From a virus: DNA of 64,000 nucleotides. Positions within the stretch are counted from its first letter, which is position 1, and the number at the start of each line of letters is the position of its first letter. The notes below the pieces were generated by a model. The model ran no database searches. It was not told the DNA's origin and was given only the letters and a program-made list of their open reading frames with translations. Positions 12,365-53,055 of this stretch are shown in pieces. The position numbers and the translations under genes were made by a program. Where the stretch lies: positions 1-64,000 of IMG/VR virus record IMGVR_UViG_3300031730_000001; one strand, written 5' to 3'.

Positions 12365-12594
12365 AGAAGCACAAGGCACCCAACCGGCAGCCGCGCGGGG
12401 CACGCGCCACACTGCCCAAACCGATGTACCCGCCAGCGCCGCCGTGCGGACCCAACCCGTATCCCGAAGTCAGCAGCGACCCGTGGTGGGCGCACAACTG
12501 CCACGCCTGCGCCTGCTGGCATCAGTACGACGAATGCCCGTGCGACCTCGCCGCGCACGTGCCCTCGCATCCAGCGGCCGACTGTCCCTGCTGA
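12361..12594 (+). CDS. Cys/Pro-rich small protein
   Basis: 77 residues from GTG 12361. Basic head (KKHKAPNRQPRG), then a Cys-rich tail (CHACACWHQYDECPC and a final CPC) that could bind metal. No family recognised. Confidence 0.55.
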   Translation: MKKHKAPNRQPRGARATLPKPMYPPAPPCGPNPYPEVSSDPWWAHNCHACACWHQYDECPCDLAAHVPSHPAADCPC

Positions 12595-39973: not shown

Positions 39974-41267
39974 TTGCTGACGGGTCGTCGCTACCGGCTC
40001 GCGCTCACGCCCGAGACAGGAGGCGCAGTGCGAGGAGTACGCCAACACCTGCCGCGCCGTATGGAACACCGGCCTCGAACAACGCCGGGAGTATCGGCGG
40101 CGCGGGGCGTGGATGAACTTCGTGCCACAGTGCGCCGAGCTCGCGGAGGCCAGGCAGGCGCTTGAGTGGCTGCGCGCCGCGCCTTCCTGCATTCATCAAC
40201 AGACGTTGCGGGACCTTGAACAAGCCTGCCGCGAGCGCGGCACGTGGAAAGTGCGATGGCGGTCGAAGGCGCGCTGGAGCCCGTCGTTTCGCTTTCCTGA
40301 CAGGAGATGGCTTCGCGTAGAGCGGCTTGGCCGCAAGTGGGGCCGGGTCAAGCTGCCAAAACTCGGATGGGTCCGCTTCCGTTGGTCGCGCCCCCCGGGC
40401 GGTGAGATCCACTCCGCCACGGTGTCCCGAAAAGGTGCGCACTGGTTCGTTTCCCTCCTGATAGACGACGGTCGGGAGGTGCCCGAGAAGCACGCCATGC
40501 CGAACACGGCGGTAGGCATAGATCGGGGCGTGAAGGTCGCCGCAGTCACCTCCGATGGCGCGTTCCATGACCGGGAGTTCATCACTGCTGGCGAGGCCGG
40601 CCGGTATCGACGGTTGCAGCAGAAGCTAGCCCGCTCCAGGCGTGGATCCGCGAACCGGCGCAAGACCATCACGGCCATGGGCCGAATCACGAGCCGAGCG
40701 TCAGACCGCCGTGGTGACTTCTGCGCCTTCACCGCGAACCGCATCACCGGGCGGAACGCCGTGGTGGTGCTGGAAGACCTCAAGATAAAAAACATGACCG
40801 CATCGGCGTCCAGAACTCTGGACGAGCCGGGTGAGCGAGTCGCTCAGAAGCGCGGCCTGAACCGCAGCATCCTCGACAAGGGGTGGAGCCGCCTTGGGCT
40901 CGCCCTTGCCAACGCCGCCCGATACACGGGCACCTCCGTGGTTCTGGTTAATCCCGCGTACACCTCGCAGCGTTGCCACGCCTGCGGGTTCGTCACTGAA
41001 GGCAACCGCGAGAGCCAAGCGGTCTTCGTGTGCAAGAACCCTGGGTGTGGCCACGCAGACCATGCCGACGTGAACGCCGCAAAGAACATCCTCAGCGCCG
41101 CAGGGCATGTGGTGCCAGCCTGTGGAGACCTCGCCGTTGGGCGGTCCGCGAAGCAGGAACCCGGAGGCCGGGCGACCGGCCGAACCCTTCGTTTGGGAAT
41201 CTCCGGCCTCCATGCCGGAGAGGAAGCCAACTGCTCGTCAGCCTGTCCACCCTCCCTCTGCCTCTGA
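39974..41267 (+). pseudogene. tnpB: tnpB (IS200/IS605 family), frameshifted N-terminus
   Basis: The N-terminal segment from TTG 39974 (LLTGRRYRLALTPE) is out of frame with the main frame. One extra A at about 40016 (GAGACAGG for the expected GAGCAGG) explains it: removing it joins LTPE to QEAQCEEYANTCRAVWN and to the long frame. The long frame retains RuvC Asp (GIDRGVK), Glu (VLEDLKIKN), the zinc ribbon (CHACGF, CKNPGCG) and Asp (HADVNAAKNI). An internal start at 40113 would lack the N-terminal region. No tnpA seen. A single sequencing error cannot be excluded. Confidence 0.85.
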
Positions 41268-42353: not shown

Positions 42354-42381
42354 CTACAGAATAATGACCGTTATCCTGTAG
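42354..42381. other. dif-like 28-bp palindrome
   Basis: Left arm CTACAGAATAA (42354-42364), 6-bp centre TGACCG, right arm TTATCCTGTAG (42371-42381). The arms are inverted copies matching 10 of 11 positions, and the inner ATAA / TTAT edges are those of Xer recombination sites. It ends 2 bases before the start of a Xer-type recombinase gene. It could be the site that recombinase acts on, or its operator. TATCCT at 42372-42377 inside it also looks like a -10 for leaderless transcription. Confidence 0.6.
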
Positions 42382-42383
42382 CG

Positions 42384-43424
42384 ATGAACACGCTTCCCGT
42401 CATCCGATCCACCGGGACCAGCCCCGACCGTCCAACCCAACGGGCCATCACGCTCCGCGGCAGGCCGCCCGCTTCGACCCCCGACGCACTGCTCGCGCTA
42501 CTCGCTGAGGCCGGCGCCGGGCCCACCGTCCTGAAGGCCACCCGATCGTGGCTCGCCAAGCGCCCGAGTGGGCACAGCAAGACCGCCTACGCCAAAGACG
42601 CCGCCTGGTGGCTCGCCTTCTGTGCCGCCAGTGACACCGACCCCACGCGCGCACGGGCCACCGACGCCGACGACTACGAAACGGCGCTCCGCGAGACAGG
42701 CCTGGCCAAGTCAACTCGTGGGCGCCGCCTGGCTGCCGCGTCGAGCTGGTACACCTACCTGATCCGCGCGGACGTCGCCGACCGGAACCCATTCGAGGGG
42801 ATGGAGCGACCCTCAGTCTCCGCCGACGACTCACCCACCCGCGGACTCACCGCCGACCAGCTCGGCAGGCTGCTCAACCACGCCCGCGCTCGCGAGTCGA
42901 CGCGCACCTATGCCCTGCTCGTCACGCTCGCCACCACCGCGGGTCGCATCGGCTCCGTCCTCGCTCTCACCGTAGGCAAGCTTGGCCACGACCAGGGTCA
43001 CCGCGTCGCCGACCTGATCGTGAAGGGCGACAAGACCAAGCGCGTCGTCCTGGTCCCGCTCGCCGTCGAGGCCATCGACCGCCACATGGACGGTCGACCC
43101 CTCCAGGACGACGACTATGTGTTCGCCACCAGTACCGGGCGGCCGATGGACGAACCGGCCGCCTTCCGTCTCGTTCGACGCGTAGCCGGGGCGGCAAGGC
43201 TTCCGCACGCCGACCAGTTGTCGCCCCACTCGCTGCGCCACTCCTACGCAACGGCGCTCCTGAGCAAGGGCGTCCCCCTCGCGGATGTGCAGGACGCCAT
43301 GGGGCACGCAGACCCGCGCACCACTCGCCGCTACGACCGGGCCGCCGGGGCACTCGACCGCTCGCCGTCATACAAGATGCAGGACGAGATCACGGCCGCG
43401 ATGCGGGCTGCGGAGGGTGAGTAA
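42384..43424 (+). CDS. Xer-type tyrosine recombinase
   Basis: 346 residues from ATG 42384. SAM-like N-terminal domain (about 35-140) and a catalytic domain with Arg188 (TTAGRIGSVL), Lys region (KGDKTKRVV), His282 and Arg285 (HSLRHSYAT), His308 (GHADPRTTR) and Tyr317 (RYDRA). Closer to XerC/D or plasmid resolvase-type recombinases than to the 48644 integrase, which has a long AP2-like N-terminus. No ribosome site fits before the ATG because the palindrome occupies that space. Confidence 0.9.
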   Translation: MNTLPVIRSTGTSPDRPTQRAITLRGRPPASTPDALLALLAEAGAGPTVLKATRSWLAKRPSGHSKTAYAKDAAWWLAFCAASDTDPTRARATDADDYETALRETGLAKSTRGRRLAAASSWYTYLIRADVADRNPFEGMERPSVSADDSPTRGLTADQLGRLLNHARARESTRTYALLVTLATTAGRIGSVLALTVGKLGHDQGHRVADLIVKGDKTKRVVLVPLAVEAIDRHMDGRPLQDDDYVFATSTGRPMDEPAAFRLVRRVAGAARLPHADQLSPHSLRHSYATALLSKGVPLADVQDAMGHADPRTTRRYDRAAGALDRSPSYKMQDEITAAMRAAEGE

Positions 43425-43454: not shown

Positions 43455-43483
43455 GCCCGCCTCGTCCCCCCGTCGAGGCGGGC
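43455..43483 (+). terminator. Terminator after recombinase
   Basis: GCCCGCCTCG at 43455-43464 and CGAGGCGGGC at 43474-43483, perfect 10-bp stem. The rest of 43425-43689 holds no supported gene. Confidence 0.8.
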
Positions 43484-43689
43484 GCTCGCGCGTTCACTCT
43501 TGGTTGAAGTTGACGCCCCGAATTTCAAGGTTGCGGCCCTACAGTTGAACTTGCGGCATCCGGGTGGAAGACCCGGCGCTCACGCCTCGCGCCGCTTGGG
43601 AGGTGGCCCGACTGCCCTCGTGGAGTCGGAGAACCCCTGTGCCGCATCGAGTGGCTGTCCGCGCCGACGCGCGGGCGGCCACTTGCACG

Positions 43690-48643: not shown

Positions 48644-49948
48644 TCATTCTTGGGCTTGGGAGATTTCTGGGAGATCCACTTGCGGTCCGCGCTCCGACCG
48701 GCGCGGGCGGGGCTCCTCCCACTCCCGGTGGTGGTCCCTCACGCCCGCCGAGGCCTCCCACAGCTTCTGCAGATCCGCCGCGATGTCCAGCTCCATCGGC
48801 AGCGTCGTGTGGCTGTAGGTCCCCTCAACTCCAGGGATAACGTGCCGCATCCGCTCCTCGACCGCAACCCGCGGGTGCTTCAGCTCATCGAGCCACACCT
48901 TCATGCTGTGGCGCAGCCCGTGCGGCACGATGTCCTCGATCCCCGCCACGGCCCTCATGTCCGGCAGTCGCGCAGGGCGGCCGAGCTTGTCCGGCGTCGC
49001 CGTGTGGCCGTCCACCCAGCGGCGCCAGATGTCCGTGTAGAAGTAGGCGCTCGTCGACATCTTCTTGCCGTTGGCCGAGGGGAACACCCAAGGCGACTTG
49101 TGCGAGGCCAGCACCTCTCCCAGTAGTTCGGCGAGGAACGGAGGGATGATCAGGCTTCCCGAGCTGCCGTACTTCGGATCCACCTGCGCCGGCTTGCCGC
49201 CCACGTACTGGTGCTGTTCCTCCACCAGCAGCCGGAAACCCTGCCCGTGGTCTTCGAGGATGAGGTGTTCGCGGCGCAGGCCGGCCGCCTCGGATATCCG
49301 GAGCCCGCAGTAGGCGATCGTGAGAACCAGGGCGTAGCCGACGATGCCGCGCATGGCGCGGGCGTTGCGGGCCAGCAGCAGGGCCTGGCGCGGGGTAGCA
49401 AGGACTGTGTCGTCCTTCTTCGGCTTGCCCTTGTACTTGCCGCGCCGACGGGCCTTCAGTGTGGGCACCGGGTTGTCGCCGATCACCTTCGAGGTGACGG
49501 CGTCGTCGAACATGACCCGCATCACCGACATGACGCTCTTTACGTACCGGGGCTTGTAGCGCTTGCGCAGCTGCTGCTCCCACGTCTTCACAGCGACCGT
49601 GGACACATCGGCCATGGCGGTCGGCTCCCACCTGGGGAGGATCACGGACCGGAGGCGTTGCCGGTACGTCTTGTCGCTGCGGTTGGCGAGCTCCACCGAC
49701 TCGATCCACAGTTCGGACCAGTCGCCGACCGTGATGCGGCCGTCCTTCGGGTTGATGAACTTCTTGCGGCGCACGTCGGTTTCGAGGCCGGCCGCATACT
49801 TCGTGGCGGCGTTGGCGCTGTAGAAGGGCTGCCCGAGATCGTCACGACTGACGGAGCCGTAGTTGATGCCGTCGGGCAGCAGGTAGCGCCCGCGGTATCG
49901 GTACTTGCGAGCCTTCTTGTCGTAGCCGCGCTTCTCTGGGTACGCCAT
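48644..49948 (-). CDS. int: Phage tyrosine integrase
   Basis: 434 residues from ATG 49948. AP2-like N-terminal arm-binding domain (YRYRGRYLLPDG, about 15-60), SAM-like core-binding domain (75-160) and a catalytic domain with Arg217 (GLRISEAAG), His343 and Arg346 (HGLRHSMKV), His369 (RMRHVIPG) and Tyr378 (EGTYSHTT). Standard Streptomyces temperate-phage integrase. Located on the minus strand next to the repressor, as in many prophages. Confidence 0.92.
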   Translation of the reverse strand: MAYPEKRGYDKKARKYRYRGRYLLPDGINYGSVSRDDLGQPFYSANAATKYAAGLETDVRRKKFINPKDGRITVGDWSELWIESVELANRSDKTYRQRLRSVILPRWEPTAMADVSTVAVKTWEQQLRKRYKPRYVKSVMSVMRVMFDDAVTSKVIGDNPVPTLKARRRGKYKGKPKKDDTVLATPRQALLLARNARAMRGIVGYALVLTIAYCGLRISEAAGLRREHLILEDHGQGFRLLVEEQHQYVGGKPAQVDPKYGSSGSLIIPPFLAELLGEVLASHKSPWVFPSANGKKMSTSAYFYTDIWRRWVDGHTATPDKLGRPARLPDMRAVAGIEDIVPHGLRHSMKVWLDELKHPRVAVEERMRHVIPGVEGTYSHTTLPMELDIAADLQKLWEASAGVRDHHREWEEPRPRRSERGPQVDLPEISQAQE

Positions 49949-50333: not shown

Positions 50334-50891
50334 TTACGAACCGTTGGCAGCCTGAGGCTCGCCGTTGTCATCGTCGTCATCGGGAAGGCGACGCAGATTC
50401 TCTTCTGTCCGGCGCCAGGCGAGCAGCGCGTCCTGGATCTGCTGCGGCGTGGCGTCGGGGCTGCCGTGCACGACCACGGTCATGCGGGCGCCGTTGGCGC
50501 CGGGCAGCTGGATGACGGTGGAATCGACCAGGGGGTCGTCGGACTCCAGTTCGTCCACGATCCGCAGCGAGTACTTCCGCCGCAGCTTGTCCGCTTCCGC
50601 TCCGCCGCGGTCACCGGCCGGGACGTCCGAGGCGGGGATGGGCTCGCCGCCGTCGAGGACCAGGCGGCCCGACCCGGCTTCCCATCCAAGATGTGGCTCG
50701 ATCTTGGCCAGGGTTTGGGGCATACGGCCGCGCGGCTTGCCGGCTTCGAGGTTTTGGACGCTGCCCTCGCTGACGCCGGCGCGTTCGGCGAGCTGAGGCT
50801 GTGTGAGACCACGGCCTTCGCGTGCCGCCCGGATGGCGGTTCCGAGTGCGGCCCAGTGCAGCTTGGTCCGGTCCTCTGTCATGGCCCTCAT
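50334..50891 (-). CDS. XRE-family phage repressor (CI-like)
   Basis: 185 residues from ATG 50891 (ATG 50882 possible). N-terminal HTH: GTAIRAAREGRGLTQPQLAERAGVSEGSVQNLEAG, then KIEPHLGWEAGSG. A C-terminal helical and strand region (LRRKYSLRIVDELESDDP, then MTVVVHGSPDATPQQIQDAL) could mediate dimerisation; no LexA-like Ser/Lys protease motif is seen. Divergent from the XRE gene at 51152 across repeated CCCAACGA sites, as expected for the switch. Confidence 0.85.
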   Translation of the reverse strand: MRAMTEDRTKLHWAALGTAIRAAREGRGLTQPQLAERAGVSEGSVQNLEAGKPRGRMPQTLAKIEPHLGWEAGSGRLVLDGGEPIPASDVPAGDRGGAEADKLRRKYSLRIVDELESDDPLVDSTVIQLPGANGARMTVVVHGSPDATPQQIQDALLAWRRTEENLRRLPDDDDDNGEPQAANGS

Positions 50892-51799: not shown

Positions 51800-52240
51800 T
51801 TGCCTGACATCGTCTCATCCGCCCCCGAGGTCAAGCGAACCTCACCCGTAGTTGAGCTGCGGGATGCGGCGGCGAAGCTCCGCAAGCACGTGAAGCACGC
51901 GACCGAGGGCCCGTGGGTCACCAGTTCCGTCTGGTCGCCGCGAGCCACCTCGACGAGCGCCGTCTACTCCCACGCCCACCTGGCTGGGTCGATCGAGTCC
52001 GAGGTTGTGGCTTCGGGTCGGATCCGGTCGGGCTACGGCGGGATCCGTGAGCCGTGGAACGCCGAGTACATCGCCCTCATGCAGCCAACTGTCGGTGCTG
52101 CGCTGGCCGACCTGTTGGAGCTGGAGGCCGACGTCATCGAGGCGCGGATCGTCGAGGAAGGCTCGGACGAGTTCGCGGTCGACCTCGGCGGCGACCACGC
52201 GCTGACCATCGCCCGCCTCATCAACGGCGGTGCCAAGTGA
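51800..52240 (+). CDS. Hypothetical early protein, related to 59260
   Basis: 146 residues from TTG 51800 with AAGGG 7 bases upstream; no ATG or GTG fits. TEGPWVTSSVW then PWNAEYIALMQPTVGAALADLLELEADV. The NA-YIA-MQP-V core recurs in the gene at 59260. Function unknown; frequent in Streptomyces phages. Confidence 0.65.
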   Translation: MPDIVSSAPEVKRTSPVVELRDAAAKLRKHVKHATEGPWVTSSVWSPRATSTSAVYSHAHLAGSIESEVVASGRIRSGYGGIREPWNAEYIALMQPTVGAALADLLELEADVIEARIVEEGSDEFAVDLGGDHALTIARLINGGAK

Positions 52241-53055
52241 CAACGCCGATCGTGTTCACCTTCCCTGAGACCGCACAGCACGTGCGGTCCGTGATGGTCG
52301 ACGGCGAGCCGTGGTTCGTCGGCAAGGACGCCTGCGATGGCGTCGGCATCGTCAAGTATCGCGACGCTCTCGTTCAGCTCGATGAGGACGAGAGGGTGTC
52401 CATGGCCGTGGACACCCCTGGCGGCGCCCAGCAGATGGTGCTCGTATCCGAGGCCGGCGTGTACGCCCTGCTGCTCATCTCTCGCTCGCCGAAGGTGAAG
52501 CCGTTCCGCCGCTGGCTCACGCACGAGGTGCTGCCCGCGCTCCGCCGGACCGGCTCGTACTCGGTTGAGGTGGCCCCCGCCTTCCCGGTGCCGCGCACTC
52601 TGCCGGAGGCGCTGCGGGCCTTCGCCAACGAGGTCGAGGCCCACGACGAGACGAAGCAGCGCGTCGCCGAGCTGGAGCCGGCTGCTGCCGCGTGGGACAA
52701 GCTCGCCGCCGCCGATCAGGACTTCTCGGTCCGGGAGGCCGCGCACATCCTCAACCGCGACCCGCACATCGAGACCGGGGAGCGTCGCCTGTTCGCGGTG
52801 CTGCGCGGCATGGGCCTGGTCGACAAGACGGACCGCCCGTACCAGAAGCACACCGCGCACGTCCGCCTTCGCCCGCGCTCGTACACGAACCCGGTCACGG
52901 ATGAAGAGACCCCGGCGAAGCCGCAGGTCCGCGTGACATTGCAGGGCATCGCCTACCTCCACAAGCGGCTCGGCGGCGCGGTCAACGTGCACCGCCTGGT
53001 CGCCGAGGAGCAGCTGGCCCTGCCCGCCTCGACCGGAGCGGAGATCACCCGATGA
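52237..53055 (+). CDS. BRO-N / KilAC phage antirepressor
   Basis: 272 residues from GTG 52237. BRO-N domain: HVRSVMVDGEPWFVGKDACDGVGI, then QQMVLVSEAGVYALLLISRSPKVKPFRRWLTHEVLPALRRTG. C-terminal KilAC-type: DFSVREAAHILNRDPHIETGERRLFAVLRGMG and RPYQKHTAHVRLRPRSY, then VTLQGIAYLHKRL. An antirepressor that could inactivate a prophage repressor. Placed early in the rightward operon, consistent with induction. Confidence 0.9.
   Translation: MTTPIVFTFPETAQHVRSVMVDGEPWFVGKDACDGVGIVKYRDALVQLDEDERVSMAVDTPGGAQQMVLVSEAGVYALLLISRSPKVKPFRRWLTHEVLPALRRTGSYSVEVAPAFPVPRTLPEALRAFANEVEAHDETKQRVAELEPAAAAWDKLAAADQDFSVREAAHILNRDPHIETGERRLFAVLRGMGLVDKTDRPYQKHTAHVRLRPRSYTNPVTDEETPAKPQVRVTLQGIAYLHKRLGGAVNVHRLVAEEQLALPASTGAEITR

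Follow-up and report, generated by a model that had tools for sequence, protein, structure and literature searches.

Why a temperate phage of the Streptomyces type that already encodes an integrase should carry a second, Xer-type recombinase, preceded by a dif-like 11-6-11 palindrome, is the question raised by positions 42354-43424 of the viral DNA analysed here (a stretch of 64,000 nucleotides, referred to as the window). A reading of the letters without database searches (the sequence-only reading) had proposed either that the phage has its own dimer-resolution or integration site, or that the recombinase represses itself, and took the second enzyme as a hint of a plasmid-like or resolution function. 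The comparisons described below make it likely that the gene and palindrome constitute an autonomous single-recombinase module with Xer/dif geometry, resembling MrpA/mrpS, which would monomerise circular multimers and repress its own gene.

The recombinase gene and its palindrome

The features on which the argument depends are the following.

42354..42364 (+): left arm of the dif-like site, CTACAGAATAA; presumed binding half-site, invariant from its third base onward in 10 loci
42365..42370 (+): central hexamer TGACCG; presumed strand-exchange region, non-palindromic
42371..42381 (+): right arm, TTATCCTGTAG; invariant up to its ninth base in the 10 close loci
42372..42377 (+): predicted -10 hexamer TATCCT, within the right arm and 6 nt ahead of the ATG; fits a leaderless transcript
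42384..43424 (+): Xer-like single tyrosine recombinase of 346 aa (P0001), recognised by Pfam, XerC/XerD and PDB sequence matches
43480..43495 (+): terminator-like hairpin 3' of the recombinase gene; weak, with 0.5 expected by chance
48644..49948 (-): separate phage integrase of 434 aa, outside the Xer-like group in the tree

The 28-bp site at 42354-42381 has the order CTACAGAATAA-TGACCG-TTATCCTGTAG and is followed by CG and then by the ATG at 42384, in agreement with the earlier statement that the palindrome ends 2 nt ahead of the recombinase start codon. The letters likewise confirmed the claimed length of 28 bp, the pairing of the arms at 10 of 11 positions (the lone mismatch, A/C, lies at the seventh) and the inner edges ATAA and TTAT, that is, the complete layout of a dif-type site. 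Since TGACCG is non-palindromic, the site has a direction; a telomere resolvase (protelomerase) was excluded as the partner of a site with such an asymmetric centre. With 3 mismatches allowed at most, a degenerate 28-mer had a single occurrence in the window, as compared with 0.00 expected from shuffles, and is also single-copy across the full 89,873-base virus record. The first 243 bases of this record recur at its end (L072 5631-5873) with 242 identical, which suggests a complete circular or terminally redundant genome.

The assignment of the ORF at 42384-43424 to Xer-type recombinases held up, with matches to the Pfam domains Phage_integrase (2.2e-26) and SAM-like N (1.6e-5) and to the XerC/XerD families at E about 1e-33, far under the curated equivalog cut-offs (116.6 vs 335.15 bits and 114.5 vs 329.6 bits). 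The best sequence match in the PDB was XerD (E 3.6e-16); XerA and XerH were also matched, and Cre was absent among these PDB matches. An XerCD/dif pair was rejected, the cut-offs being missed and the site being linked to its own recombinase gene. Residues R188, K214, H282, R285, H308 and Y317 are invariant across 8 homologues and represent the putative catalytic set; a structure predicted from 8 sequences came out poorly, with a mean pLDDT of 43.9. In the evolutionary tree the recombinase clusters with the Xer-like proteins of plasmids and phages, and the three integrases that were included fall elsewhere (96/94). The claim that it is a second recombinase in an integrase-bearing phage was likewise upheld by the integrase at 48644-49948 (-).

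The recombinase gene comes after the lysis genes and a transposase, on the side towards the lysogeny region. The phage also has a repressor-like gene (50334-50891, -) and a BRO/KilAC antirepressor-like ORF (52054-53055). The transposase gene (PHROG 506, 40113-41267) is situated just upstream, between the module and the lysis genes. In relatives the recombinase gene has the late genes on one side and the lysogeny region on the other, but may share the strand of the late genes or lie opposite to them, as expected for a unit with its own promoter. About 1 kb upstream of it, the phage-like contig of S. prasinopilosus carries a ParA-type gene, which points to plasmid maintenance there. In two related phages a gene for a TROVE-domain (Ro60-like) protein is found within a few hundred bases of the recombinase gene (L073 3605-5311 and L074 6790-8469, minus strand), one of them with a vWA match.

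Conservation of the site among close and distant homologues

The close family comprises ten recombinase loci of phages and one plasmid with 66-78% protein identity, taken from viral contigs, the S. prasinopilosus contig, the same-family genome G413 and a 13.5-kb Streptomyces plasmid; several of the ten are supplied by metagenomic contigs. For the locus L003, which has a possible in-frame GTG start, the ATG in register with the other loci was adopted. The site is found directly 5' of the ATG in 10/10 loci, and its 28 columns are on average identical in 9.64 of 10, as against 4.67 and 5.17 in two upstream 40-bp blocks; the upstream flank is near random, unlike the 28 bp. The central hexamer is TGACCG, TGACCC or TGACTG in all ten. 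Absence of the palindrome upstream of homologous recombinase genes in related phages had been named in advance as the result that would refute its relevance; it proved to be present, and on this sequence evidence the palindrome is not a chance feature. The element TAGCGCATAACG, located ~65 bp upstream of the site, is common to the window, L003 and L009 and is absent from the other displayed close loci. The recombinase of the 13.5-kb plasmid nests among the phage copies in the tree, with weak support (84/47), and this position suggests exchange between phages and plasmids. The record NZ_CP108534 (L004), deposited as 'linear', consists of 26,964 = 2 x 13,482 bases arranged head-to-tail with two site copies; its halves are identical at 12,394/12,394 compared bases, and it represents either a genuine unresolved dimer or an artefact that arose when a circular plasmid was assembled.

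The possible -10 noticed earlier inside the palindrome, TATCCT, recurs with an identical 6-nt gap to the ATG in 10/10 close loci, and this gap agrees with that of leaderless promoters, in which the -10 lies about 6-7 nt before the start codon. No -35 is conserved across the 10 close loci. In the close family the right arm thus probably also supplies the -10 of a leaderless promoter, so that binding of the recombinase would repress its own gene. A promoter alone fails to explain the conservation, since the left arm is conserved equally and a conserved -35 is lacking. Self-repression, which had been put forward as an alternative to resolution, is probable in view of the -10 inside the right arm; as an alternative it does not stand, since it probably accompanies resolution.

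The distant set contained 20 homologues of about 33-46% identity, mainly gathered by protein similarity before the site search, and up to 1.3 kb upstream was scanned with a fixed score composed of arm pairing and the ATAA/TTAT edges. The phage palindrome scores 18, and 15/20 distant homologues possess an 11-6-11 palindrome of the ATAA/TTAT type upstream of the gene or operon with scores of 15-18, whereas the maximum in 240 first-order Markov reshufflings of upstream regions was 14. When 250 random real windows were scored, 6 reached at least 15, all of them covering such a site; 2 of the 6 represent the palindrome upstream of SCP2 mrpA. Kinship exists among the 15 positives, pSLE1, pSAM1 and S. 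pseudovenezuelae being closely related and S. virginiae and S. anulatus likewise.

The distant homologues are mostly found on actinobacterial plasmids, in hosts that include Streptomyces, Kocuria, Micromonospora, Rothia, Pseudonocardia, Actinomadura and Streptosporangium; a 4.4-kb Kocuria plasmid, pSLE1 and pSAM1 are among the plasmid carriers of the family. The occurrence on so many plasmids of related recombinases whose sites share this layout supports the resolution (plasmid-like) function suggested by the sequence-only reading. The distance from site to gene is at most about 82 bp in most distant homologues and larger in others: in pSLE1, pSAM1 and Streptosporangium the site sits ahead of a preceding gene, and in these three and the S. 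anulatus plasmid hundreds of bases separate it from the recombinase gene downstream. On two Streptomyces plasmids the recombinase gene is followed at a short distance by a zeta-toxin family gene (L088 3572-4648, L094 3825-4862).

The two arms covary: their outer sequences diverge among the distant sites yet stay palindromic. Paired cells amounted to 85.6%, a value inflated by the partial selection of sites for pairing, vs 64.1% in shuffled arms and at most 45% with the partner slid; furthermore, 48 double changes were observed in the arms vs 15 in shuffles. A search of 72,556 plasmids with the site only returned 2 records, both with a recombinase of the family downstream, which adjoins the site in NBC_01220 and is located about 1.2 kb downstream of it in S. 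anulatus. The site had zero matches at BLAST E 1 in 50,697 deposited phages, and looser site patterns in viral contigs yielded extra matches only where this recombinase is absent; eight matches to a second pattern, in low-GC DNA (0.27-0.44), were taken as chance palindromes. The GC-rich palindrome of Arthrobacter phage relatives (9/11 paired, 43-44 bp upstream) was left uncounted, its flanks being conserved as well.

Known systems and alternative explanations

MrpA of SCP2 is a documented plasmid multimer-resolution recombinase (PMC3218068), and mrpS works as an oligonucleotide-borne inserted site in E. coli expressing MrpA, where the pair has been used to form multimers from monomers (PMC4685060). 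The SCP2 palindrome GCTCTTGATAA CGTTCC TTCTCTAGAGC, 28 bp long with 11-6-11 layout and 21 bp upstream of mrpA, is presumably mrpS. The MrpA/mrpS system of Streptomyces coelicolor SCP2* likewise pairs one tyrosine recombinase with an 11-6-11 palindrome a short way upstream of its gene, and two characteristics of MrpA-type systems, a single tyrosine recombinase with conserved putative catalytic residues and an inverted repeat linked to the gene, are present here (the latter in 10/10 close and 15/20 distant loci). The mrpS palindrome, however, is not positioned at the start codon, whereas the phage site precedes the ATG by 2 nt, and MrpA/mrpS belongs to plasmid SCP2*, whereas the present module occurs in integrase-bearing phages. 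MrpA matches the phage recombinase with a blastp E of 0.002 over one 80-residue stretch and forms a long branch of unsure placement; with proteins so remotely alike, the module is proposed to work like MrpA, not to be MrpA.

XerH/difH and XerS/difSL also consist of one recombinase with a site near its gene (PMC5357621), but they are chromosomal and FtsK-linked, difSL measuring 31 bp, whereas the present module resides on mobile elements. The dif site of F. alni, CACGCCGATAATGCACATTATGTCAAGT (PMC3025954), matches the phage site in layout and inner edges. XerCD/dif in general has the same 28-bp 11-6-11 site with ATAA/TTAT edges, but here a single recombinase is accompanied by a gene-linked site that was not found in the sampled host chromosomes. 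Cre of phage P1 is a phage-borne single recombinase that resolves dimers of the plasmid prophage, and loxP has a 13-8-13 layout; the module described here likewise has a phage-borne single recombinase, but its site is 11-6-11 and a separate integrase is present.

We infer that the adjacent recombinase binds the palindrome as its cognate site and also carries out crossover there. Each 28-bp site would be occupied by two recombinase monomers, and once two sites had synapsed, strand exchange would take place across the central 6 bp. In a dimeric circle, whether of the phage genome or of a related plasmid, there would be two directly repeated sites, and recombination between them would yield monomers; in the close family the bound recombinase would also shut off its own leaderless promoter via the -10 in the right arm. 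Several observations count against such a resolution module: 5/20 distant homologues have no recognisable site upstream, the phage itself gave no match to ParA (PF13614), no recombination events were seen in the sequences compared, dimer resolution would be of little evident use to an integrated prophage, and NZ_CP108534 with its two site copies may be an unresolved dimer.

It is unlikely that the palindrome is an operator and promoter only, at which the recombinase represses itself while the true crossover site lies elsewhere. The -10 in the right arm, its invariant 6-nt gap to the ATG and the location of the site near the start, well placed for repression, would all fit; yet the left arm is conserved as much as the right without a conserved -35, the centre is restricted to TGACCG, TGACCC or TGACTG, the layout and inner edges are those of dif (F. 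alni, PMC3025954), and the remote sites of pSLE1, pSAM1, Streptosporangium and the S. anulatus plasmid are hundreds of bases from the gene. An attP function, by which the recombinase would insert the element into a dif-like chromosomal site, is improbable, although dif-integrating elements (IMEX) are known (PMC5357621) and the two putative integrases of pSLE1 have been taken as a sign of possible chromosomal insertion (PMC4487206). The site, allowing up to 3 mismatches, was present in 0/393 other sampled Streptomyces genomes, and S. prasinopilosus has a single copy, on the phage-like element contig only. The presence once per host chromosome typical of dif is thus not seen in these 393 genomes, a near-identical chromosomal attB is unlikely, though a diverged one may exist, and neither the proposed integration site nor a palindrome near dif in host chromosomes was borne out. 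A separate integrase is encoded by this phage, which has no serine integrase by PF00239, and by several relatives, which also speaks against an attP. In Arthrobacter phages a distant relative stands beside a second tyrosine integrase (Isolde, Judy) or a serine integrase (Maja), which implies retention of the second recombinase alongside differing integrase types. G003 and G004, in which no second recombinase was found by PF00589, were dropped as phages lacking another integrase because their contigs end within the lysogeny region.

There is a very small chance that the main role of the module is to fuse different elements into cointegrates (of a phage with a plasmid or of two phages) and to separate them again, as a route of gene exchange. 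Near-identical sites in phages and the 13.5-kb plasmid, the weakly supported place of the plasmid recombinase among phage copies, and the ability of MrpA to turn monomers into multimers as well (PMC4685060) are in line with this; against it, no cointegrate was found, the plasmid centre differs by one base (TGACTG), and the similarity between the window and L003 extends beyond the site. Circularisation or monomerisation of the genome upon infection, as with Cre/lox in P1, appears the most remote of these explanations: size and single recombinase are similar to P1 Cre and the 243-base end repeat with 242 identical would suit it, but the site is mid-record at 42.4 kb and nothing specific is in favour.

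Implications for actinobacterial plasmids and phages

Streptomyces chromosomes are typically linear. XerD matches above the family cut-off were found in 0/31 sampled Streptomyces genomes, and Xer-like matches at E 1e-40 or better in 3/31; Corynebacterium, among the controls, does pass the XerD cut-off. A host Xer is probably unavailable in the sampled Streptomyces, which would be a reason for elements to bring their own system, but it cannot be the sole reason, as relatives occur in other actinobacterial genera. We regard as evenly balanced the broader proposal of a widespread family on actinobacterial plasmids and temperate phages, in which one Xer-like recombinase and a coevolving 28-bp dif-like site, fused to a leaderless promoter in the close family, would provide self-regulated monomerisation where host Xer is unusable (Streptomyces), including in integrating phages.

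Such genes are usually labelled 'integrase' in public annotation, which can mislead the prediction of prophages and att sites; pSLE1, for instance, was judged possibly integrative on this ground (PMC4487206). In Maja (L105) the Xer-like tyrosine recombinase gene adjoins an annotated serine integrase, making its 'integrase' label doubtful. Pairs with differing arms form a natural series in which to study the coevolution of a tyrosine recombinase with its site. They are also candidates for orthogonal recombination tools in high-GC hosts. Given the linear chromosomes and the lack of XerD above the cut-off in the 31 genomes, circular plasmids and phage episomes of Streptomyces may have no host enzyme for dimer resolution to draw on, and the module would explain how they cope. 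A resolution system in integrase-bearing phages furthermore suggests that their circular stage carries more weight than has been assumed.
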